From Paenibacillus brasilensis (lineage in GTDB: Bacteria; Bacillota; Bacilli; Paenibacillales; Paenibacillaceae), in the NCBI RefSeq assembly GCF_009363115.1, contig NZ_CP045298.1, positions 1,069,001 to 1,133,000 of the forward strand: a stretch of DNA of 64,000 nt, in the 5' to 3' direction. The number at the start of each line of letters is the position of its first letter. Within the stretch, counting starts at the first letter, position 1. The notes below the pieces were generated by a model. That model saw nothing but the letters and a program-made list of their open reading frames with translations, had not been told where the DNA came from and did no database searches. Below are positions 43,558 to 57,674 of this stretch, piece by piece. A program made the translations under genes and the position numbers.

Positions 43558-43590
43558 CAACGGTCCGGTGTATGTTCACCCGGACCGTTG
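43558..43590 (-). terminator. Hairpin at the end of the basic-tailed glycosyltransferase gene
   Basis: CAACGGTCCGG pairs perfectly with CCGGACCGTTG across an 11-base loop. It overlaps the stop at 43576. There is no T run, so it may attenuate or protect mRNA. A tandem GTTTGATGTTCA repeat follows it. Confidence 0.55.
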
Positions 43591-45213
43591 TCTTGTATGC
43601 CGTCCACCCTTAAGCGTGATTCGCTTTCGCTTATGAAGGTGTTGTCGCCGTGACTTTAGTTTTCGCTTGAGCTTGGGCGACATTGTCGATCCCTGAGTAC
43701 TCTTGCGACGACTTCTGCCGTTGCTGCTACTGTTGTGCTTACGGCTCTTGCGGTGGCGTAGTCTGATATGCCTGCGACCCTTCGGCCATCTTGCACGAAT
43801 GCTACGCTTGCTGCGGGGCGTTTCTGGCTGTAGCTCAGGTACTGGGGGAGCTGGTTGCGGCAGGCCCTGGATGGCTGCGTATTCGATCGGCGGCAACCCC
43901 AGCACAGGCAGCTGACAAACCACAGATTCGGGAAATTCTCGAATTGTGCTGGTAAACGCCTCAGGTATAGCAATGACCTGACGCAGTCCTTCACCTTCCC
44001 TCGTCCATACAGGGCCACCCGGCTGCTGAATCAGTGGAAACCAATGGGGATGATGACACAACCATTGACTTACCATGAGATGCAAGTTGCCTCGATAGGA
44101 CTCGGGTCCGTAAACACGTGTAGCCGCGCTGTTATTACGTATACCAATTCGTTTGATTTCCTCGGGATGATTGAGCAGATAACCCACTTTTTGCGCCAGC
44201 ATGTCGCTGTTGCCTGGCTCCACCAAAAAATCTGTGTTTCCGGTCGCCTCCATCAATTCGACCAATCCGCCCTGCGCAAAGGCTACAACAGGCTTGCCGT
44301 AAACCAACCCTTCCAGTGCAGTCAGACCAAAACCTTCCTCCACCATACTGGGGATCACAACAATATCCATCGCACTATAGGCAGTCGACACAGACTCCTC
44401 AAAGGAGTTGAACTGAAAGCGGCGACTAAAACGAGATTGGCGGATTAACGAGACGCATTTTACGTAATATTCCGAGTCTACCGAGCTGCCGATAATCCAG
44501 AAACGACAGCGCGAATTGGTTTCGCACAGCTTTAAGGCCATCTGGACAAAAGGCAGCAGCCCCTTGGCTTCGTAGATAAAGGAAGAAATATAACCAATAC
44601 AAATATGAAAATCCCGCAGCCCCAGCTTTTCACGTTTTCTTTTCCGTTCCAGCACATGCTCCTTGGGTGGCGGCATATCCATATCCCGACAAGGTGGTAA
44701 CACGGTATGCAGACGTGTCAGCCCCCCGCCGTGCAAAGGACGCATAACGGCCTGTGAGATGCCGATGACCCATTGACTGTAACGCTCTATGATGGAGACT
44801 GAGACTGGCGTATGCTCATTCTGGTTAATGACCTCGGTTATTTTCCAGATCACCGGAATATTAAGCTCCTGGGCAGCTATCGCGGGCATAACGTTCACAC
44901 AGGTATTGACCAGCACCACATCAGGACGGGCTTGCTGGAGCATTTGGAGCAACGGTGCATACACAACATGGCTTCGCAAATTCTCCGCATCCTGCGCTAA
45001 GCCCTCATACGGGGTATACATGCCGTGCAGCATGAACAGGCTCTGGATCTGAACAGTGATCCCGCGCTTGCGTGCAATCGTAGTCAGACGCCCTTCACCG
45101 GGTGTTACCAGAATACAGTCAAAGTACGTACGAATGTCCAAACAGAATTGCAATAGCAGCTTCTCGGCTCCCGTAATACTACGGACGTTGCTGACATGGC
45201 TGAATAGCATCAT
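43576..45213 (-). CDS. Family 4 glycosyltransferase with Arg/Lys-rich C-terminal tail
   Basis: The 545-residue protein has a GT-B glycosyltransferase over residues 1-400: SNVRSITGAEKLLLQFCLDI, PVIWKITEVIN, ICIGYISSFIYEAKGLLPFV and PSMVEEGFGLTALEGLVYGK with the E-x7-E pattern. Residues from about 467 on are very basic, with RSKRSIRARWPKGRRHIRLR and many more Arg, Lys and His to the end. Such tails are not usual for GT4 enzymes, but similar basic ends occur in other proteins of this cluster. The tail may bind acidic partners or polyanions in the spore surface layer. Confidence 0.82.
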   Translation of the reverse strand: MMLFSHVSNVRSITGAEKLLLQFCLDIRTYFDCILVTPGEGRLTTIARKRGITVQIQSLFMLHGMYTPYEGLAQDAENLRSHVVYAPLLQMLQQARPDVVLVNTCVNVMPAIAAQELNIPVIWKITEVINQNEHTPVSVSIIERYSQWVIGISQAVMRPLHGGGLTRLHTVLPPCRDMDMPPPKEHVLERKRKREKLGLRDFHICIGYISSFIYEAKGLLPFVQMALKLCETNSRCRFWIIGSSVDSEYYVKCVSLIRQSRFSRRFQFNSFEESVSTAYSAMDIVVIPSMVEEGFGLTALEGLVYGKPVVAFAQGGLVELMEATGNTDFLVEPGNSDMLAQKVGYLLNHPEEIKRIGIRNNSAATRVYGPESYRGNLHLMVSQWLCHHPHWFPLIQQPGGPVWTREGEGLRQVIAIPEAFTSTIREFPESVVCQLPVLGLPPIEYAAIQGLPQPAPPVPELQPETPRSKRSIRARWPKGRRHIRLRHRKSRKHNSSSNGRSRRKSTQGSTMSPKLKRKLKSRRQHLHKRKRITLKGGRHTRQRSG

Positions 45214-45273: not shown

Positions 45274-46407
45274 TTATGGAAATACAATCGACAGCAACTG
45301 GTCTATCCGGTGACCATACGTGTGCTCCCGCAAGGTTCGTTCCAGCGCGCGCAGGGCAATTTCACGACGTTCCTTTTCATGTGTCAAATAAAACTCAATC
45401 TTCTCCAGTAATTCCTGCTGAGAGCTGTACGTCTCAATCTCCTCTCCCGGCTTGTAAAAACGGACCAGATCATCTCTTGTATCTGTCAGCTGCAGGGTAC
45501 AGCTGGCAGAAATTTCGAACGTGCGCGGATTCGGAGACGCCCCCGGAATTTTCAGCGTGTTGTTGTTCACCGAATCATCCTGATGGGAACGATGAAGATT
45601 AATCACGATCTTGCTGCCGTTATAAGAATCATTTGTTTCGGCCGGGGACATCCAGCGGCCCAGTTCAATTTTGTCGCCATAAGACTGATAATCAGGAAGG
45701 CGATCCCACCAGATTCCATTGATTTTAATGTTACGTGCCATCAGTTGGGGCATAATCGGATTAAAGAAATAGACGCGATTCCAATAAGCCGAGCCGGTAA
45801 AGCCGATTTCACGTCTTATCGAAGCAGGCGAGCTGAGAGGGAAATAGTGAGTCAGAAATGCCCCGAAAGGCAAATAGTGTACTGAAGAGCAGCCCAACTG
45901 ACGGTACAACTCTATACAATTCATTTCCAGCGTGAATACATGATCATAGTGCGGAACAATTTTAGTCGTGGTATCGGTGTAATAAGGATCGTCTGTGAGC
46001 CAGATGGTGGTTGGAATGCCCAACTGGCGTACCGCAGTAACCTGCTCCACTGGAAGATCCATTCCATCCAGTGACAGCATCAGATCCGGACGGAGCTGAG
46101 CGGCAATATCTCCTACCGGCTGGCGCGGGTCCGTGACGGTAACCTGAGCCGTCATGCTTTGCAGCGTGTTAATGACCGCCTCATCCAGCGGAGAATACGG
46201 AAGGCCTTTACCCGAGACGACATACAGTACATGGATTTGCCGAAAAGGAAAAACGGCCTTCGTCCGGGAAACAATCGCGTTGGCACGTCCTCGCAGATAT
46301 CCTTCGTCATAGCCGTCATGGAGCCCCGCAGCTCTTCCCTTTTCCCAAGAGGCTGCCGCCGTCTGATGAACAGCCGGGTCATACGGTCCTGTCGTAGATA
46401 TTGTCAT
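45274..46407 (-). CDS. CgeB-like protein (spore maturation glycosyltransferase-like) with glycine-every-fourth segment
   Basis: The 377-residue protein (ATG 46405-46407, AGGAG eight bases upstream) has a CgeB-type GT-like core: LRPDLMLSLDGMDLPVEQVT, TTIWLTDDPYYTDTTTKI, YDHVFTLEMNCIELYRQLG, IGFTGSAYWNRV and NPRTFEISASCTLQLTDTRD. CgeB of B. subtilis acts in spore outer-layer maturation. Ahead of it is a segment with Gly24, 28, 32, 36 and 40 (EKGRAAGLHDGYDEGYLRGR). That segment is shared with other cluster proteins. It pairs with a paralogue encoded just upstream. Confidence 0.82.
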   Translation of the reverse strand: MTISTTGPYDPAVHQTAAASWEKGRAAGLHDGYDEGYLRGRANAIVSRTKAVFPFRQIHVLYVVSGKGLPYSPLDEAVINTLQSMTAQVTVTDPRQPVGDIAAQLRPDLMLSLDGMDLPVEQVTAVRQLGIPTTIWLTDDPYYTDTTTKIVPHYDHVFTLEMNCIELYRQLGCSSVHYLPFGAFLTHYFPLSSPASIRREIGFTGSAYWNRVYFFNPIMPQLMARNIKINGIWWDRLPDYQSYGDKIELGRWMSPAETNDSYNGSKIVINLHRSHQDDSVNNNTLKIPGASPNPRTFEISASCTLQLTDTRDDLVRFYKPGEEIETYSSQQELLEKIEFYLTHEKERREIALRALERTLREHTYGHRIDQLLSIVFP

Positions 46408-46440
46408 CACTTTCACTCCTCACTGTATTTGGTATTTACT

Positions 46441-47532
46441 CTAGGCCATCGCCTTGTCCAGCAATTCTTCCATGCGATTTGAGTACATATGCTTTTGCAT
46501 GGTGGTGCGCAGCGCGCGCCAGGCCATACGTTCCCGCTCCCAGTCATGCTTGAGATAGTAGTCCAGCTTGATCTTCAGTTCCTCTACTCCAGAGTAGGTT
46601 TCGATATCATAGCCTGGTTGGTAATAACGGCTCAGGTCTTTCCGAATGTCCGTTATTTGAAGCGTACCGCAAGCCGCAATTTCGTATGTCCGGGGATTGA
46701 TGGACTCCGCTGACAGCTGATGTGTATTCCGGTTATCCAGTCCGTGGTCTGTCGGGCGGTGCATATTGAGGACAATTTTGGAGCCGTTATAGTATTGAGC
46801 GGTCTCCCACGGCTCCATATAAACCGGACGGATAAAACGTTCCAGCACATCTCGGCGAGTCAGTCGATCCCAGTGCCCACCTACGATCAGCACTCTTTTG
46901 TCTGCAAGAAAGGGAGCGAGGTAGTCAAACAGCTTCACCCGGTTCCAGAAGGCATTCCCGATGAAGCAAACATCATGCTGATGCTCCCGTTCCACCCGCC
47001 TTGGATAAAAGATACGAGCTGATGCTGCAAGCGGCAAATAGTGTACCCTCGCTACTCCCTGATCGCGATAAAGCTGCAAGCAGGACATTTCATGCGTAAA
47101 TACGACATCGTAGGATTGACAGATCAACGCTGTATCCTCCGTAAAGTAGGGATCGTCTACAAACCAGATGGCCGTACGAATGCCCAAGGCTCGTATTTGC
47201 TGCACCTGCTCCAGATGATCCGCCGGAAAAATATGCAGCCCGTTCAGGACCAGCACGAGGTCGGGGCGATGGACCTCGGCGTCAGCCAGCATCGTGGCAG
47301 GCGTACCGATGACAAATGCGCTGCACATTTGGCTTAGTGCGTCTTGCACACCAGTGTCTATAGCTGTGAAGCCTTGCGGAATGTACAACACTTTCAAAGG
47401 GCGAACAGCAGGCTGTATTCCCACGACCTGTGACAGAGCAGCCGTGCAACCGCCCATTCTGCGTCCTTCCCGGTAGCCGCATCGGTATGCTTCGCGTTCA
47501 TTTCCGCTTCGTTGATCTTTCACATCCTTCAC
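46441..47532 (-). CDS. CgeB-like protein, paralogue
   Basis: The 363-residue protein parallels its neighbour: RPDLVLVLNGLHIFPADHLE, RTAIWFVDDPYFTEDTALIC, YDVVFTHEMSCLQLYRDQG, VCFIGNAFWNRVKLF and NPRTYEIAACGTLQITDIRK. The N-terminal glycine segment is shorter (CGYREGRRMGG; Gly19, 23 and 27). The start may be GTG 47530-47532 or the GTG three codons on; both have poor sites. It also fits a glycosyltransferase-like fold of spore proteins. Confidence 0.82.
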   Translation of the reverse strand: MKDVKDQRSGNEREAYRCGYREGRRMGGCTAALSQVVGIQPAVRPLKVLYIPQGFTAIDTGVQDALSQMCSAFVIGTPATMLADAEVHRPDLVLVLNGLHIFPADHLEQVQQIRALGIRTAIWFVDDPYFTEDTALICQSYDVVFTHEMSCLQLYRDQGVARVHYLPLAASARIFYPRRVEREHQHDVCFIGNAFWNRVKLFDYLAPFLADKRVLIVGGHWDRLTRRDVLERFIRPVYMEPWETAQYYNGSKIVLNMHRPTDHGLDNRNTHQLSAESINPRTYEIAACGTLQITDIRKDLSRYYQPGYDIETYSGVEELKIKLDYYLKHDWERERMAWRALRTTMQKHMYSNRMEELLDKAMA

Positions 47533-47709
47533 CCTGTCCTGTTGTAAGATAAACTTCTGTCACTCCTAAACTATATGCGGAGGGGTCAAACGCATCATGG
47601 ACGACTGCCACTGCCCGGACAAAATTGGCGTTTGCCCGTCCAACTGCCAAATCGCAAATAACCCCGAAGCTGTTAGCCTCGGGGGAGCAATATTCAATGA
47701 TCTGACTAT
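47533..47709. other. Intergenic region with a hairpin
   Basis: 177 bases without a gene. A CCCCGA/TCGGGG hairpin at about 47661-47685 would follow the Arg-rich gene on the minus strand and may act as a weak terminator. Confidence 0.45.
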
Positions 47710-48066
47710 TTACTGAGCCTTGTATGCGATCTGATGACCATCTTCATAGCCTTTGGCAAAGCCGGAATTGAAGCCTTCGTTGTAAGCTGCATCATACCCC
47801 TGCTGAAATGCCTGCGGATCATGCTCCAGACGGGCAGGCTCGGACTGTGGATTTTCCGCAGCAGGGGCTGCTGCTGGATGATGAGATTTTTTGCGCCGCC
47901 GTAGAAGAGAGTGTCTTCTGCGTGTAGAATGAAGTCCTCTTCTACGTCGTCTTAGAGCAAGCAGACGTCTTCTTCTCCGTTTTAATCTGCGAATGCTGGA
48001 ACGCCGGGCATCTTTGCGTCTTTTGCGGGCTTTGCCCCGAGCGAAGCGTTCCCACCTTATACTCAT
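47710..48066 (-). CDS. Arg-rich protein with a C-terminal glycine/aromatic repeat
   Basis: The 118-residue protein is extremely basic up to residue 60 (RARKRRKDARRSS-like blocks with runs of Arg), then has an Ala/Pro hinge, and ends with a helix-like array in which glycine or alanine stands at 90, 94, 98, 102, 106, 110 and 114, each followed by Tyr, Phe or His (GYDAAYNEGFNSGFAKGYED). ATG 48066 has AGGAGG seven bases upstream. The array is the same type seen in the CgeB-like proteins and a GT2 of this cluster. It may be a scaffold for those enzymes. Confidence 0.7.
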   Translation of the reverse strand: MSIRWERFARGKARKRRKDARRSSIRRLKRRRRRLLALRRRRRGLHSTRRRHSLLRRRKKSHHPAAAPAAENPQSEPARLEHDPQAFQQGYDAAYNEGFNSGFAKGYEDGHQIAYKAQ

Positions 48067-48364
48067 GTTCATTCCTCCTTGGCTTTTTCGTGATAGCTTC
48101 ATTTTTTTGAACAGGGATATGGAGCCACGGCTGTGTCGGTTTCCCATATACCTGCCGTCTTAATGGAATTCCTGCCAGCATTTGCGTGATTTTTCCCTGA
48201 TAGTTGCTGAGTATCCGAATGGTTTCCTCCAGACGGGCGGCCGACATTTCCGCATGGGGCGTTAAGTCCGCAAGACTGCTCAGCATCCGGGTGACGGCGT
48301 GCTGGCTGGCAGCAATAGATTCCAGCATATCCAGCTTGATCTCACGTTCACGCCTCATGCTCAT
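47942..48364 (-). CDS. Small helical protein, uncertain C-terminus
   Basis: The 140-residue frame starts at ATG 48362-48364 overlapping the previous stop (TAATG). Its first 80 residues are helical (REREIKLDMLESIAASQHAV; ADLTPHAEMSAARLEETIRI). The last 42 residues overlap the Arg-rich gene in another frame and include its ribosome binding site, so the real end may be shorter or a frameshift may exist. Resembles the two following small proteins in style. Confidence 0.55.
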   Translation of the reverse strand: MSMRREREIKLDMLESIAASQHAVTRMLSSLADLTPHAEMSAARLEETIRILSNYQGKITQMLAGIPLRRQVYGKPTQPWLHIPVQKNEAITKKPRRNEHEYKVGTLRSGQSPQKTQRCPAFQHSQIKTEKKTSACSKTT

Positions 48365-48696
48365 TAGCTCATATCCCCCGAACCCATGCCTCCCATCATC
48401 CCTTCCATTCCGCCACCCTGCTGCTCATCCTGATCCAGCAATGCCTTGAGATTGCTGCAAAGTCCAGTCTGAAGCCGGGTTAGTCCCTCCAGCATTTCCA
48501 CCATCTGCTCGTGAACCTCCAGTGGCCGTCCCAGTTGCTCTTCATCGGTATCAAATACGTTGGGCGCCAAATGGTTCAGCGCCCAATTACGCATTTTTTC
48601 CGCTTCGACCGCCTTGGCCTCCAGGATCATGGACACGTTCCTTTGCATTTTGGAAGCTGCATCCAGCATATGAATCATTGCTTTTTCCCTACTCAT
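48364..48696 (-). CDS. Small helical protein with Gly/Met-rich end
   Basis: The 110-residue protein is helical (HMLDAASKMQRNVSMILEAK; LEVHEQMVEMLEGLTRLQTG) and ends GGGMEGMMGGMGSGDMS. It has no recognised domain. Together with its two neighbours it looks like a set of related helical-bundle proteins of the cluster. Spore-associated structural role is inference. Confidence 0.65.
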   Translation of the reverse strand: MSREKAMIHMLDAASKMQRNVSMILEAKAVEAEKMRNWALNHLAPNVFDTDEEQLGRPLEVHEQMVEMLEGLTRLQTGLCSNLKALLDQDEQQGGGMEGMMGGMGSGDMS

Positions 48697-48725
48697 GTGT
48701 TCACTCCCTACCCTCGGTTGGTACG

Positions 48726-49013
48726 TTACTCCTCTTCCGGGTATGCCGTCTCTTTCACGACACGAACGAGCATCTCAGCCATTGCTTCCTGAAGATCGGC
48801 AATACCGTTCAAGTAGGCAACGATGCTTTTGTTTACTTGTCTCGAGCCTTCCAGAATGCCCGGAATTCCGTCAAAACGCGGCTCCTCATCCGGCAGTTCA
48901 TGTATGATCTGCGCCATACGCACGACCACCTGCCGTTCCGCATCCAGCAGCCTTGACATTTGCTGCTGCGAGTGCGAAATATGAATTAGCAAATCATCTA
49001 CCTCGTTATGCAT
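48726..49013 (-). CDS. Small helical protein
   Basis: The 95-residue protein (ATG 49013) is acidic and helical: HNEVDDLLIHISHSQQQMSR and GILEGSRQVNKSIVAYLNGI, with an acidic ending (AYPEEE). The spacing of its helices resembles the 110-residue neighbour. No family is recognised. Confidence 0.65.
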   Translation of the reverse strand: MHNEVDDLLIHISHSQQQMSRLLDAERQVVVRMAQIIHELPDEEPRFDGIPGILEGSRQVNKSIVAYLNGIADLQEAMAEMLVRVVKETAYPEEE

Positions 49014-49131
49014 AAGCCCCTCCTTTATGTGCTCCGCCTTGCGGAACCCACGAATACCTACGGGCTTTCCGCTACTACAGCGTATGCCGCAGCGAGTAGT
49101 CGGTTCCGCCTAAAAGCGCCTATTCCGATCA

Positions 49132-50589
49132 TTACAGATGCCCCTGCAGCACAGGTGGCGCAATAATCGGCTGCTCCTCCACCAGCACGGACAGATCTCC
49201 TGGGGACAACAACCGAATTCGGTAGTCAGCCGCCCGCCAGATCATGGCTGCATAGGAAGTAAGGAACGGCCTTTTCCAGCCGTTCCCGATTTGATACAGT
49301 TGACTGCCTTCGGCATACAGTACCTCAATCCATTGCTTGCGTTGAGCCGGGGTAAGCGTGGGGAGCATGGATGTGCTCTCCACTTCGGAAGCTGCCAGCA
49401 CCGGAATGGATTCCTCTGCCGGTACGGCCACAGGTGCTTCCACGCCACCGGAAACCGCGGCCTCCGGCTTCGGTATCCGAGGAAGCGCCAACAGATCAAG
49501 CTGGGATATTCTAACGGGGGCCGCGTATTCATCTCCCGCAGCACGGACCCCATCCAGAAGGCGCCTTCCTCCCCGTTCTAACCGAAATACGGCACCGGAT
49601 GGTCCTTCGACGAGCACTCCGATGGGATAAAAACTTGCCGCTGACACATGTTTTTCCTTGCTGGATAATACCTTTCCGTCCGGCTCCGCTGCAGCGAGCT
49701 TCTGACTGGGAAGCAGCTTATTGATGTCCCCCCACTTTTGGACAAAAAAGGATCGGTTCTGGCTGCTCTCCTCCATTGAACCGTTTTTTACGGTCATCTG
49801 GGGAAAACGATAAGCCGTATCCCGATCACTTTCTGCGTAGTGGATAAAAGCATCTCCGGCAATTGCCATACGTATCCCCAGCAAGCGAACACGCAGCAGC
49901 CAATCTGCAGCGGCTTCCTGACCACTGTGACAGCCCTCGTCCCAGTACCCTGTTTTTTCCAGCGTTTCTCTGCGCAGCAATAAACAAAATCCGGCCAGGC
50001 TCTCTGTTTCTCGCCATGCAGCCGGGTTGGAAATATTGTAGGTCAGGGCAAATGGATATGCCTCATTTTCGTTTATATAAGGAACCTCAATCTGCTGCTC
50101 TCCGAATGGTCCATTCGTTACAGGCCCGACGACCCCCATTGACGGATCGCTGTACAAGCACTCCAGCATACGATCCAGCCAGCCGGGGGTCACCATGACA
50201 TGTGGTTCCAGTACCGCAATAGTCTTGCCTTTTGCCATCATCAGTCCCTGATTCAGACTTCCCAGCATATGAGCATCCTTTTTTAGCAGCGCATAACGCA
50301 CAGCGATGCTCTTACGGAGCAAATAGGTGCGTGTCCCGTCCGCCGAGCCGTAATCCACCACAATAATTTCGTGAGGATGGCTCGTATGCTCCTCAATACG
50401 TTGAATACATGCTCGAAGCTGATGAAAGTGATTGCAGGACGGAATGATAATGCTGACACCTTCAAAAACCTTGCCGAACGAAGCCTGGCCCAGCCTGCAG
50501 CCCTGCTCCTGGCCTCTTTTATGTCCTGCCCAATAGCCTTTCTTACCGAGCCGCTTGCTGTGTTTCCTTTGTATACTCAGGCGTTTCAT
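49132..50589 (-). CDS. Family 2 glycosyltransferase with N-terminal basic and glycine-repeat segment
   Basis: The 485-residue protein (ATG 50587-50589, GGAGGAG upstream) starts with a basic stretch (MKRLSIQRKHSKRLGKKG), then Gly18, 22, 26, 30 and 34 (KGYWAGHKRGQEQGCRLG), then a GT2 domain: GVSIIIPSCNHFHQLRACIQ, IIVVDYGSADGT, PHVMVTPGWLDRML and GFCLLLRRETLEKTGYWDEG. The C-terminal 150 residues include proline- and valine-rich linkers. The GT2 part resembles the neighbouring GT2 at 51391-52191. Confidence 0.82.
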   Translation of the reverse strand: MKRLSIQRKHSKRLGKKGYWAGHKRGQEQGCRLGQASFGKVFEGVSIIIPSCNHFHQLRACIQRIEEHTSHPHEIIVVDYGSADGTRTYLLRKSIAVRYALLKKDAHMLGSLNQGLMMAKGKTIAVLEPHVMVTPGWLDRMLECLYSDPSMGVVGPVTNGPFGEQQIEVPYINENEAYPFALTYNISNPAAWRETESLAGFCLLLRRETLEKTGYWDEGCHSGQEAAADWLLRVRLLGIRMAIAGDAFIHYAESDRDTAYRFPQMTVKNGSMEESSQNRSFFVQKWGDINKLLPSQKLAAAEPDGKVLSSKEKHVSAASFYPIGVLVEGPSGAVFRLERGGRRLLDGVRAAGDEYAAPVRISQLDLLALPRIPKPEAAVSGGVEAPVAVPAEESIPVLAASEVESTSMLPTLTPAQRKQWIEVLYAEGSQLYQIGNGWKRPFLTSYAAMIWRAADYRIRLLSPGDLSVLVEEQPIIAPPVLQGHL

Positions 50590-50662
50590 GCCGTTCACTC
50601 CTCCGGGTGGCATTATGCCTATACTATATGCCTGGCCCGGCCGGATGGTGTTTCACCCGAGA

Positions 50663-51394: not shown

Positions 51395-52191
51395 ATCTTC
51401 CCTCCTCCTTCGACAGCATGTTCAGCACATGACTCCCCAACGTTACCCGTTTCAATGAACATTCTGGGGTCTATGCTCCATTTCTCTATAAACAAACGAT
51501 AGTTCCGCTCAATCAGCTCTTCGATCCAGGACGTATCCGTGCGTGAGAAGCTTGCATTTCCCTGGTGATAAACAAAACAGTCATTACACATCAGCAGCTT
51601 ATAGCCATGCACGCGTGCTCGCAGACAGTAATCGTCATCCTCATAATGTCCGGGACTGAACCGTTCATCAAGCAATCCGATGCGTTCCACCAGCTCACGC
51701 CGGAACAACATGCAAAATCCGACCAACCGTTTGACCTCTTGCCATCTGGACGGATTACTTATATTATTTTGCTCCGCAAACCGCAGGCAACTGGCCAAAT
51801 CCCCTGTCAATCCGTGAACCTGCTGAATACCGCTGACATAATTGGTCACTGGACCCACTAGTCCCACCGTGCTTTCGCTCTGCAATGCAGCCAGCATATT
51901 GGATAGCCACCCGCGCGTAACCGTCACATCATTGTTCAATATGACGAGCTGATCACCCGTTGCCAGACGAAACCCCATATTACAAGCTGTCGGAAACCCC
52001 CGGTTTTCGGGGAGACGTACGCTGATCAGACGCTCGGCTGCACAAAAAGCATCCGTACCGTCATTCGAAGCGTTATCTACTACAATAATTTCATAAGGCA
52101 CATCCAGCGTATGTGTCCGAATCGCCTCAATACACGGCTTTAGCAGATGCAGGCCGTTATAAGTCGGGATAATAATGCTCGTCACGCTCAT
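51391..52191 (-). CDS. Family 2 glycosyltransferase
   Basis: The 266-residue protein has SIIIPTYNGLHLLKPCIEAI, IIVVDNASNDGTDAF, LVILNNDVTVTRGWLSNML and GFCMLFRRELVERIGLLDER, then a DDYCLRARVHGYK block. These are standard for GT2 rhamnosyl/galactosyltransferase-type enzymes. Overlaps both neighbours by four bases, so it is part of a coupled operon. Confidence 0.86.
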   Translation of the reverse strand: MSVTSIIIPTYNGLHLLKPCIEAIRTHTLDVPYEIIVVDNASNDGTDAFCAAERLISVRLPENRGFPTACNMGFRLATGDQLVILNNDVTVTRGWLSNMLAALQSESTVGLVGPVTNYVSGIQQVHGLTGDLASCLRFAEQNNISNPSRWQEVKRLVGFCMLFRRELVERIGLLDERFSPGHYEDDDYCLRARVHGYKLLMCNDCFVYHQGNASFSRTDTSWIEELIERNYRLFIEKWSIDPRMFIETGNVGESCAEHAVEGGGKI

Positions 52192-53123
52192 CGTGCATTC
52201 CTCCCTTTGGCAACGTCTATCCGCGTGGGAACGGGGCCGAACGGGGAAGCACCCGCTACCTGGAATACCGCCGTCAGCGCCTCCGCATGATCACCAACGA
52301 TCAATTGCTCCATAACGTTTCCCTTGCCTGTATTGAAGGTCCGTTTGCGGTTCGTTTTAAGGACGTCGACAGCATGTACGGCTGTTACCATCATACCGTA
52401 CAGCACTGCCATGGCATGGGCCTTTGGCGGGACAGCGAGCACGGCCGGACCAAGCAAATCCAGCACGCGCCGTGACAAGGCGTGCGGCACAGCGGTCAAT
52501 GAGCTTGCTCCAAGATCCGGCCTGCGCAGTATGCGGTTCAGGAACCCTTTGCACCGTGTGACGCTGTCCTGTCGGGCATAGGGCGGTAAATGTTTGCCCA
52601 GATCGTTAAGTGCCACATCCGTCCCCTGATCAACCGCTTGGAGAAAAGGCAGCAAGTCAGACGCCGGAATTGGCAAATCTCCGTCCACAAACAGCACGAT
52701 ATCAGCCTGCGTCATACGTGCGCCTACAGCACGCCCGACATCATGCCCAAGCCGATCCGGCAGGTTGACGAGGGTCACGCCAGGATGATGCTTCGCTACG
52801 ATAGAGCGCGTGCCGTCCGTACAGCCGTTCAAAACGACAATGATGTCCTTAAGCGGAAGTTTCTCCAGCTCGCTCAGTGCCCGGTCAATTGTTGACTCCT
52901 CATTACAGGCACTAACCACGGCTGCTGCTGTTCCCTGCAGCAGAATGTCCTTGGGAACTTTTTGTATCTCAGGCAGATTCACTTCGGTCGTTCCTTTTCC
53001 CCGAGGTGCGGGCTTCCTTATTCTGCGGCTGTGCATTGAATGAGTTGATCCTTGTCTTCGCTGTACACGTCTACTCCCCCAACTTGGATCGTCACGCTTT
53101 CCTCTGCCATACTCTCTGCTCAC
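52188..53123 (-). CDS. GT2-like glycosyltransferase with basic N-terminus (paralogue A)
   Basis: The 311-residue protein starts with GTG 53121-53123 after GAGGTG, overlapping the preceding gene's stop. About 45 basic residues (MSREYGRGKRDD, SRRVQRRQGS, SRRIRKPAPRGKG) precede the catalytic domain: AAVVSACNEESTIDRALSEL, IIVVLNGCTDGT, LGHDVGRAVGARM and DIVLFVDGDLPIPASDL. The GT2 core resembles glucosyl-3-phosphoglycerate synthase-like enzymes. The neighbour at 53120-54058 is a paralogue. Confidence 0.8.
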   Translation of the reverse strand: MSREYGRGKRDDPSWGSRRVQRRQGSTHSMHSRRIRKPAPRGKGTTEVNLPEIQKVPKDILLQGTAAAVVSACNEESTIDRALSELEKLPLKDIIVVLNGCTDGTRSIVAKHHPGVTLVNLPDRLGHDVGRAVGARMTQADIVLFVDGDLPIPASDLLPFLQAVDQGTDVALNDLGKHLPPYARQDSVTRCKGFLNRILRRPDLGASSLTAVPHALSRRVLDLLGPAVLAVPPKAHAMAVLYGMMVTAVHAVDVLKTNRKRTFNTGKGNVMEQLIVGDHAEALTAVFQVAGASPFGPVPTRIDVAKGRNAR

Positions 53124-54058
53124 GGTTTCACCTCATCTCTGATCCGTTTGCGCTTCAAATCCGTAAATCCCACACGGGTTCCCAAATGTGATGTAATCCA
53201 GGAAATAGCATCCAGGTGATCCTGTACAATCACATCCACCAGCGGGTCCTTGCCGTTCTGTTTTTTTCGTGTCGCATTCATTCTACCGACAGCTATTCCA
53301 TATACGGTCACCACTCGCAACCCGGAGACGATGGACATAGCTTGAAATAAAGGAGGCTTCTCCAATGACTTTAGACCTATTTTTTTCAAAGCCCTTTGAC
53401 TTATGGCATGTGGAATAGCCGTCATGGATGCCCCTCCTAAATCAGCACGGTTCGACAAAATATTCAATACATGCTTTGCATCAACTACAGGATGTACCGA
53501 CGTATGATTCACGGGTCCATGGTAATCATTCAGCACAATATCCGCTCCTGCGCATATGGCCTGTATGAACGGTCGAAGTCTTTCGCAGGGAATGACGATA
53601 TCCCCATCCAGAAAAAGCAGTACCTGTCCGGAAGCCGCCTCCGCTCCAATCCGACGGCCCACATCATGTCCCAGCGGTTCCGGGAAGGAAATAACACGCG
53701 CCCCCGCCGCTAGTGCCACCTTCGCCGTCCTGTCGCTTGATCCGTTCTCGACCACGATAACCTCAGTATGTGGATGGACACGTCGTGCCTCACGAATAAC
53801 AGCTCCAATCGTTTTTTGCTCATTCATGGCCGGAATAATGACAGATACGAGCAATTTTCCACTCGCTGACGGTTTGGATGGCCGCTCCTCACCTGTCTGT
53901 GCGCCTTTTTCCGCGCCCGCTTCCTCCCCAATGACAGGACTTATCGGGTTCATATTCAGCTTGGGCACTCTTACTGGCAGCCACAACCTTGAGTAGCGAT
54001 TGGCGCTGGAATGCCGTCTGCGATTGAGCTTATATCCAGCTCTTCTCTGCTTCCTCAT
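53120..54058 (-). CDS. GT2-like glycosyltransferase with basic N-terminus (paralogue B)
   Basis: The 312-residue protein begins with a basic segment (MRKQRRAGYKLNRRRHSS), then the GT2 core VSVIIPAMNEQKTIGAVIRE, VIVVENGSSDRTAKVA, LGHDVGRRIGAEAASGQVLL and FLDGDIVIPCERL. It matches paralogue A in LGHDVGR, ADLGGASMTAIPHAISQRAL and other blocks. It is the first gene of the glycan cluster as transcribed. The ATG at 54056-54058 has AGGTGA and GGGAG ahead. Confidence 0.82.
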   Translation of the reverse strand: MRKQRRAGYKLNRRRHSSANRYSRLWLPVRVPKLNMNPISPVIGEEAGAEKGAQTGEERPSKPSASGKLLVSVIIPAMNEQKTIGAVIREARRVHPHTEVIVVENGSSDRTAKVALAAGARVISFPEPLGHDVGRRIGAEAASGQVLLFLDGDIVIPCERLRPFIQAICAGADIVLNDYHGPVNHTSVHPVVDAKHVLNILSNRADLGGASMTAIPHAISQRALKKIGLKSLEKPPLFQAMSIVSGLRVVTVYGIAVGRMNATRKKQNGKDPLVDVIVQDHLDAISWITSHLGTRVGFTDLKRKRIRDEVKP

Positions 54059-56408
<2,350 letters not shown>

Positions 56409-56558: not shown

Positions 56559-57353
56559 TCAAACAACTTTTTTAAGGGATGCATGACGATAGTGAACTGA
56601 GGTCATGAACTCCAGGGTTCCATGGATTCGATGATGGTTATACCAATTCACATAATCAAACAGCTCCAGTTCTAGATGACGAAGGCTCTGAAAATTCATC
56701 TGATACACAAACTCTGTCTTCATGACTTTGAACGTAGCTTCTGCTACAGCGTTATCGTAGGGGCAGCCTTTCATACTGAGAGAACGTCCAATGTGAAAGG
56801 TTTTCAGCAGTTCATCCATGCTTTGATTTTTAAACTCACTCCCCCGATCTGTGTGAAACCACTGGATGTCGCGTAAATCGCCCTCCACCGTCGCAAAAGC
56901 GCGAGCAACCAGAGCAGCGTCCTTCCGAGGACCTGCACTATGACCGATGATCTCTCGATTAAACAGATCCACCAGCACGCAAATATAGTGCCACTGGTTC
57001 TGGACTTTCACATAGGTCAGGTCACTGACAACGAAGCGTTTGCTTTCCATTTGGGTGAACTCGCGGTTCAGTGTATTGGCTGTAGCCGCTTCATTACAGG
57101 CGGTTTTATAGGGCTTATATTGTGCCACCGTGTAGGTTGAAACGAGTCCATGTTCTTTCATGATTCGACCGATCCGCCGCCTGGAGACGACGAATCCGCG
57201 CTCATGGAGCTTGACTTTGATCTTGCGCATGCCATAGGCTTTTCGTTTCTTGTGGAAGATATCCACAACCGCTTCGGTTACATCGTCTTCGGTTGCCTGT
57301 TCTTTGGCTTCGTAGTAAAACGTACTTCTTGCGATTTGCAGGACGTCACACAT
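56559..57353 (-). CDS. IS3-family transposase OrfB, copy 1
   Basis: The 264-residue part has the rve/DDE catalytic core: first Asp in VVSDLTYVKVQNQWHYICV, second in IQWFHTDRGSEFKNQ, Glu in DNAVAEATFKVMKTEFVY. An HTH_21-like part precedes it (KLHERGFVVSRRRIGRIMKE). In IS3 elements OrfB is made as a fusion to OrfA by -1 frameshifting, so the listed ATG (MCDVLQIARSTF) may not be a real start. This copy's OrfB looks intact. Confidence 0.88.
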   Translation of the reverse strand: MCDVLQIARSTFYYEAKEQATEDDVTEAVVDIFHKKRKAYGMRKIKVKLHERGFVVSRRRIGRIMKEHGLVSTYTVAQYKPYKTACNEAATANTLNREFTQMESKRFVVSDLTYVKVQNQWHYICVLVDLFNREIIGHSAGPRKDAALVARAFATVEGDLRDIQWFHTDRGSEFKNQSMDELLKTFHIGRSLSMKGCPYDNAVAEATFKVMKTEFVYQMNFQSLRHLELELFDYVNWYNHHRIHGTLEFMTSVHYRHASLKKVV

Positions 57354-57375
57354 TACTGATACCGAGTATTTATCA

Positions 57376-57674
57376 CGATTGTTCTGGATGATAGATACTT
57401 TCGTCCATGATCAGCGCGGCTTGCTTTAAAATGTCGACCTCCATTTTGAGGCGTGGTTTTCTTTACGTAAAGCAATGAGTTCATTCTCTTCCGCAGAGCG
57501 ATTGTCCTTCTCGGAAAAGGAACCTGTTGTCTGAGCCTGTTTGATCCAGCGATCCAGAGCTGAGGCTGTGAGCCCATATTCCTCCACAAGGGCTGCTCTG
57601 GTTTTGCCGTTCTCGTATAACTGAACCATTTGTTTTTTGAACTCTGTTGTAAAGGTACGTCGTTGATTTGGCAT
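57376..57674 (-). pseudogene. IS3-family transposase OrfA, copy 1, frameshifted
   Basis: It begins like the intact OrfA of copy 2 (RTFTTEFKKQMVQLYENGKT, GLTASALDRWIKQAQT), a helix-turn-helix that binds the IS ends. At LRKENH it changes to SKWRSTF and stops early. Comparison with copy 2 shows one missing base near 57453-57456; with it the frame would read on as leucine-zipper residues ending LKQAALIM. So this copy lacks a working OrfA and OrfAB. Confidence 0.8.

Follow-up and report, generated by a model that had tools for sequence, protein, structure and literature searches.

Results

A glycine repeat in four proteins of one gene cluster

The window analyzed here is the whole 64,000-nucleotide stretch of Paenibacillus brasilensis contig NZ_CP045298.1 from position 1,069,001 to 1,133,000, and it contains a cluster of glycosyltransferase genes. 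Two CgeB-like glycosyltransferases (CgeB1 and CgeB2), a family 2 glycosyltransferase (GT2) and a small arginine-rich (Arg-rich) protein of this cluster each carry a segment with glycine, or alanine, at every fourth residue (GX3), which we call the tag. The genes and tags, with E-values from the tag profile A1 described below, are as follows:

45274..46416 (-), CgeB1, CgeB-like glycosyltransferase 1 with a predicted N-terminal GX3 helix (Pfam, AlphaFold, VIA-align)
46270..46350 (-), GX3 tag of CgeB1 (G27, G31, G35, G39, G43, A47), E 1.1e-6
46441..47532 (-), CgeB2, CgeB-like glycosyltransferase 2, paralogue of CgeB1, with an N-terminal GX3 segment (Pfam)
47434..47511 (-), GX3 tag of CgeB2 (A15, G19, G23, G27, A31), E 1.8e-6
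47710..48147 (-), Arg-rich protein with a predicted C-terminal GX3 helix (sequence; AlphaFold helix 111-144)
47719..47799 (-), GX3 tag of the Arg-rich protein, E 2.8e-7; Yae1_N match at E 0.011, below the cut-off
49132..50613 (-), GT2 glycosyltransferase (Pfam Glycos_transf_2)
50470..50544 (-), GX3 tag of GT2 (G26, G30, G34, G38, G42), E 0.0068

The original prediction had pointed out such segments in these four proteins, and all were found where it placed them. Its residue numbers are as given for CgeB2 (G19, 23, 27) and correspond to later starts in CgeB1 (Gly24-40 from Met4, here G27-43 from the GTG) and GT2 (Gly18-34 from Met9, otherwise G26-42), while its Arg-rich numbering roughly fits a start at MNMSIRWERF. 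From the sequence, this is likely the start of the Arg-rich protein, as it lies near 48070 with AAGGAGG directly upstream. The sub-threshold Yae1_N hit was the sole match of the Arg-rich protein in the Pfam scan. In both CgeB1 (52.2 and 115.2 bits) and CgeB2 (59.6 and 99.9 bits) the domains DUF3880 and Glyco_trans_1_2 pass the cut-off, which places the two proteins in the CgeB family, and the GT-B core of CgeB1 begins at about residue 55. GT2 consists of a basic N-terminus, the tag, a GT2 domain at residues 54-218 and a C-terminal part without Pfam match.

The repeat stands out from the rest of the genome

Among 250 open reading frames (ORFs) of the window, a period-4 glycine score ranked the Arg-rich protein first, CgeB1 second, GT2 third and CgeB2 sixth, and the observed score was reached by 1, 3, 105 and 161 of 20,000 shuffles, respectively. 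As background, 20-kb stretches at 38 regularly spaced places in this genome were scored (760 kb, 2,690 ORFs). Only six background ORFs scored at least 10, and in no case did two or more Y, F, W or H residues follow the glycines; 46 scored at least 7, three with two such residues. Three of the four window proteins score at least 10, and all four score at least 7 with two such residues (counted by eye).

Profile A1 was built from 37 segment rows, and when it was run over the whole 5.64 Mb genome its top four matches were these four proteins, which lie within 4.3 kb. The next matches had E 0.115 (FliH, by eye) and 0.75, and there was no tag match on the GT4 enzyme or the remaining GT2 enzymes of the cluster. 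Because the rows are relatives of the window proteins anchored on the last glycine, A1 is partly circular, and leave-one-class-out profiles were therefore run over the window ORFs. These ranked the omitted Arg-rich protein fourth, directly behind the three kept proteins (E 0.0038), and CgeB1 third (E 0.0031); the outcomes for GT2 and CgeB2 are given in the Discussion. The genome search and the 2,690 background ORFs together show that the pattern is not widespread among unrelated proteins; a widespread pattern would have spoken against the original prediction.

The glycines are conserved

Conservation was read from alignments of the complete proteins, made without anchoring on the segment. For CgeB1, 70 proteins were aligned, comprising the window protein and 69 sequences that share 41-97% identity with it. 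Every row has G35, G39 and G43, and 97-99% of rows have G27 and G31; conservation in the remaining columns among the first 55 residues is 29% on average and 74% at most. Of the GT2 glycines, G34, G38 and G42 do not vary across 30 rows, G30 is present in 97% and G26 in only 40%, with a mean of 38% in the remaining columns of the first 50 residues. The 40 Arg-rich rows all have G129, and G125 and G133 are each present in 98%. All four glycine codons are used at the conserved positions of these alignments, and the constraint therefore acts on the protein. Most residues around the glycines drift, and aromatic residues often stand beside them. Separately, a cysteine lies two residues past the last tag glycine of CgeB2 in 91 of 100 loci and of CgeB1 in 47 of 106; such tag-adjacent cysteines could allow cross-linking.

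The tag recurs in related genomes

Two sets of loci were compared. The 40-locus set holds 20-kb loci picked by us from 82 matching genomes of the order (Paenibacillales), and the 80-locus set the best 80 of 361 from a CgeB query that included the tags, which is a slight bias; it covers Paenibacillus, Cohnella, Fontibacillus and one record titled Paenibacillaceae, and eight loci of the 40-locus set repeat it. In both sets the segment recurs on the same proteins despite changed gene order. Among 6,964 ORFs of the 80-locus set, matches at E<0.05 fell on 75 CgeB1, 72 Arg-rich, 70 CgeB2 and 20 GT2 proteins, on four GT-D-like proteins (PF22882) and on one divergent Arg-rich protein (by eye). A tagged Arg-rich gene is found in 71 of the 80 loci, every time with a tagged CgeB, although not at a fixed place: it can precede CgeB2, follow CgeB1 or lie about 9 kb away. 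As for the nine loci without an Arg-rich match, one has the divergent copy (L113) and two are contigs shorter than 5 kb (L110, L179).

By sequence, the carriers span at least three catalytic folds, GT-B, GT-A and GT-D; the GT-B carriers are two paralogues, for which one ancestral gain would be enough. GT-D-like proteins number 34 in 120 loci, with a tag match in 13 at E<=1 and in 20 at E<=10, and longer glycine runs occur in those of L235 and L236. L163 encodes a GT-D protein with two GX3 segments. A natural CgeB2-CgeB1 fusion, a single 763-residue frame with a GX3 segment in each half, is present at L049:7995-10286, and no such fusion was found in the 80-locus set. In another locus (L190:1372-2718) an Rpn-like protein with EGREEGREEG repeats adjoins a short GX3 frame, making another GX3 pair in one locus; the short frame (G413, E 1.2e-5) was judged unrelated by eye. 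A Yae1_N match in L002 was discarded, as it lies on the strand opposite a SecF-like gene (by eye).

The tag is tied to the cluster rather than to the CgeB family as such. In these two sets 70 of 78 and 158 of 165 CgeB cores, respectively, are tagged at E<1, and the median N-terminal extension of the cores is 48.5 and 49 residues. Of 299 genomes of the class, 41 matched a tag-free CgeB core used as query. Control stretches were taken from 20 loci with CgeB cores, 18 outside the order and two at other loci of same-family genomes, and here none of 32 cores had a tag (E<1) and the median extension was 0 residues. Untagged CgeB proteins within the order include those of three f9 loci, which have no Arg-rich gene in their 20 kb. 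When 20 genomes whose CgeB is untagged (four f9, 16 outside the order) were searched for the tag, three gave matches at E<=0.1: one was a FliH, one an Rpn-like pair and one a frame containing a stop.

Order-wide, the tag search matched at E<=0.01 in 118 of 149 genomes. We chose 22 genomes of the order with no CgeB match or with few or no tag matches; 17 of these had tag matches at E<=0.05, 26 in total, and 13 of the 26 were read. Three were FliH, one was Rpn-like, two were GT-D and one was GT2. The rest were an isolated Arg-rich gene at the end of a contig (G066) and five Arg-rich or CgeB genes of G117 and G121, where the cluster is present after all.

The tag is predicted to be a helix outside the catalytic fold

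AlphaFold predicts residues 14-51 of CgeB1 as one helix, with block values of the predicted local distance difference test (pLDDT) of 81, 86 and 95 across residues 21-50. In a fold comparison, PimA, BshA and other GT-B enzymes align with CgeB1 over a span that starts at residue 49-61 and ends at 379-380 (Z 24.9, root mean square deviation 3.5 and 302 aligned in the top row). All 50 listed GT-B matches start at residue 49-61, and therefore nearly all of the CgeB1 helix lies outside the shared fold. The comparison listed GT-B enzymes only and barely probes the tag helix, so the lack of a helix match is uninformative. A search of solved structures by sequence, with the segment and with profile A1, gave chance-level matches only (best E 0.093 and 1.4) and thus no template. 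In the Arg-rich protein the predicted tag helix has pLDDT 69-89 while overall confidence is low (predicted template modelling score 0.31), and a further predicted helix at residues 26-87, in its Arg-rich part, may be a low-complexity artefact. A predicted helix shared by different enzymes and a non-enzymatic protein, as originally proposed, is thus supported, and in this genome it is specific to the cluster.

The surrounding cluster and its putative sporulation promoters

The surrounding cluster encodes GT2 and GT4 enzymes, a UDP-N-acetylglucosamine 2-epimerase, a Polysacc_synt_2 protein, a nucleotidyltransferase, and RmlD-like and further epimerase-type enzymes. Three of its sugar genes presumably resemble an FnlABC-type N-acetylfucosamine route, as we read their families. 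The GT4 enzyme (43576-45213) has a long C-terminal Arg/Lys-rich tail without GX3, and GT2c and GT2d (52188-54058) have Arg-rich N-terminal stretches; polybasic tails are common in the cluster. Three small proteins of 140, 110 and 95 residues without Pfam match are encoded at 47942-49013, and they recur near tagged genes in many loci, even with other gene order. IS3-type transposase genes (by eye) lie at 56559-57674, near the right end of the window. In other loci, very large proteins with GSVTSEALAE-like or similar repeats are encoded near the cluster (L053:13193-18628; also L047, L056, L059 and L068), and these could, as a guess, be a glycan acceptor; L054, L058 and L061 have large, unread frames too.

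Sigma-K promoters have the consensus AC-N16/17-CATANNNTA. One candidate element precedes GT2d (53120-54058), which we take as the first gene of the cluster:

54120..54128 (-), CATAGGTTA, sigma-K-like -10 element, 70 bases before GT2d

In the window, an AC at the usual distance from this element is not present. Among 40 homologous 90-base stretches upstream of GT2d, 19 contain CATANNNTA, 12 of them with AC at N15-18; in random 90-mers the frequencies are 1.35% and 0.2%, respectively. The antisense strand, taken as control, likewise shows an elevated count (9 of 40), which divergent genes may explain, and many of the loci are related. Upstream of the gene for the 95-residue protein (48726-49013), CATANNNTA occurs within 90 bases in 17 of 49 homologous loci, eight with AC at N15-18, which would be a possible second sigma-K-type promoter inside the cluster. 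The CgeB family and the sigma-K-like promoters suggest that the cluster is used in late sporulation.

Discussion

Collectively, our sequence comparisons show that the segment is a selected feature of one conserved cluster, where it occurs on enzymes of several unrelated folds and on one small basic protein. We consider it probable that it is an add-on module for protein-protein assembly that brings the enzymes and the Arg-rich protein into one complex, based on its conservation, the predicted helices and the analogy to known repeats. The glycine face of one tag helix would pack on the glycine face of another, as has been argued for FliH and demonstrated with mutants for Yae1-Lto1, so that CgeB1, CgeB2 and GT2 (elsewhere GT-D) could join the Arg-rich protein in a glycan-building complex, probably in the mother cell during late sporulation. 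Where a basic stretch precedes the helix, it may anchor the complex on an acidic surface or glycan. The Arg-rich protein might be the hub or scaffold, which is the least certain step. A more specific version, which we put forward tentatively, is that a portable GX3 tag, in many cases with a basic stretch ahead of it, recruits GT-B, GT-A and GT-D enzymes of the Paenibacillaceae to a small, tag-like Arg-rich hub in a modular and soluble spore-surface complex, the hub tag being acidic and the CgeB and GT2 client tags neutral to basic.

The charges of the tags fit such hetero-pairing. Arg-rich tags have a mean net charge of -1.9 and are negative in 88 of 94 loci and positive in none (duplicates removed), while the CgeB and GT2 tags average 0.3 to 1.1. 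Within loci, the Arg-rich tag is more negative than that of CgeB1 in 76 of 85, of CgeB2 in 77 of 85 and of GT2 in 29 of 36.

Several observations weigh against assembly in a joint complex. In two genomes, G062 and G070, the 20-kb locus has a tagged GT-D but neither an Arg-rich gene nor a tagged CgeB, and the only further tag match at E<=0.05 in either genome is an unread frame of FliH length in G070; this weakens the hub role of the Arg-rich protein in particular. GT-D tags are weak, and they are acidic like those of the presumed hub (13 loci, mean -1.5). The charge comparison itself drops tags with E>1 and is uncorrected for relatedness. Most glycosyltransferases of the cluster appear to lack the tag. 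In the leave-one-class-out searches GT2 ranked fourth, right behind the kept classes, at E 0.32, and CgeB2 ranked 14th at E 9.9, neither being significant. The window CgeB1 and CgeB2 have no basic stretch before the tag (K+R equal to D+E). Finally, the AlphaFold predictions are of single chains, CgeB1 (from the 70-row alignment) and the Arg-rich protein. The docking tag of the original prediction is partly supported, in that the segment resembles in its build motifs for which protein pairing is known or has been argued; the scaffold role of the Arg-rich protein is put in question by the two genomes in which no tagged partner was found.

Those two genomes, each with one tagged enzyme, would be expected if the tags pair with themselves or pack on their own enzyme, giving separate homodimers of CgeB1, CgeB2, GT2 and GT-D and no joint complex. 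The FliH repeats are likewise argued to pair within the FliH dimer (excerpt of PMC2674601). We regard self-pairing as unlikely, as the best tag match of the genome is the Arg-rich protein, which has no catalytic domain, its gene accompanies tagged CgeB in most loci of the 80-locus set, and tag charges differ between the classes. The sequence before the tag raises the different idea of an address label that is read by a partner without GX3, such as a coat protein, the forespore membrane or a nascent acidic glycan. In the four classes the sequence ahead of the tag has a median net charge fraction of 0.13 to 0.34, compared to about 0 behind the tag, the N-terminal extension of GT-D-like proteins is basic in 31 of 34 (K+R 0.21 to 0.54; none in three), and several untagged enzymes of the cluster have polybasic tails too. 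However, the conserved part is the glycines, which are a mark of close helix packing and not of a charged or hydrophobic surface label, and the basic stretch is missing from both window CgeB proteins, which makes the address label quite improbable. Hardly credible is a compositional accident, or shared descent of a functionless low-complexity sequence. Period-4 glycine-rich runs do exist elsewhere, in hydrophobic membrane-like stretches and Rpn-like proteins (by eye). Against this stand the use of all four glycine codons at near-invariant positions and a tag that is cluster-specific in this genome and absent from all 32 outside CgeB cores sampled; chance or composition as the origin was ruled out by the period-4 ranks, the genome profile search, the background ORFs and the glycine conservation.

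An assembly module would bear on how the glycosyltransferases of the spore surface are organized and retained at the forespore. In B. subtilis, cgeAB-cgeCDE act on the spore crust (excerpt of PMC7439481), cgeA is under SigK and GerE control, and CgeA is proposed as a glycosylation target or hub (excerpt of PMC10502511). The cluster studied here likewise has CgeB-family enzymes, in a probable spore-surface context. It differs in that the CgeB cores sampled outside the order have no tag, B. subtilis not being singled out in that sample. The original prediction assembled the complex on the spore, and this is probably where it sits, given the CgeB family and the sigma-K-like promoters. As the tag is short, conserved and deletable, the question is directly testable in Paenibacillus, and the tag might also be of use in enzyme engineering as a small scaffold. 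Among the papers found on CgeB, the spore surface and its glycosylation, and deca-GX3, FliH or GxxxG repeats, no title or opening of an abstract describes such a tag on glycosyltransferases.

The GT-D-like proteins (PF22882) of related species are a fifth carrier with a familiar layout of basic N-terminus, GX3 segment and catalytic domain, and differ in that the copy of the source genome has no tag match. This copy is a 261-residue frame at C1:1062657-1063325, about 6 kb outside the window.

By sequence, the nearest known motifs are the deca-GX3 of Yae1/Lto1 (Pfam Yae1_N, PF09811) and the glycine repeats of FliH. In Yae1/Lto1, glycine also occurs at every fourth residue over many turns, and two different proteins each carry the motif and form a complex, which is reduced by changes to the Lto1 glycines (excerpt of PMC4523923). 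They differ in that they act in yeast and man as adaptors for the insertion of Fe-S into Rli1, with no glycosyltransferase involved. The deca-GX3 is a run of about ten glycines at spacing 4; the window proteins have three to five consecutive ones plus alanines, and the GT-D proteins of L235 and L236 have longer runs. Membership of Yae1_N was rejected, as no score reached the gathering cut-off of 27.5 bits: the sub-threshold matches were the Arg-rich protein, at 15.9 bits, and CgeB1, and the best score in the genome was 17.1.

The FliH/YscL pattern AxxxG(xxxG)mxxxA is the same repeat as that of the tag, mostly hydrophilic and in soluble proteins, and it is described as consistently predicted helical, argued to dimerize and termed very rare (excerpt of PMC2674601). 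It can be read directly in CgeB2 (A15-G19-G23-G27-A31) and the Arg-rich protein (A121-G125-G129-G133-G137-A141), and a helix is likewise predicted in CgeB1 and the Arg-rich protein, the two proteins modelled. The NCBIfam FliH models touch the Arg-rich protein at E 1.6e-5; at best 24.6 bits against a cut-off of 180, membership by score was rejected. The FliH copy of this genome is in turn the fifth match of the tag profile. Long soluble GX3 helices have few known uses, and the tagged proteins would extend these to a bacterial glycosylation system.

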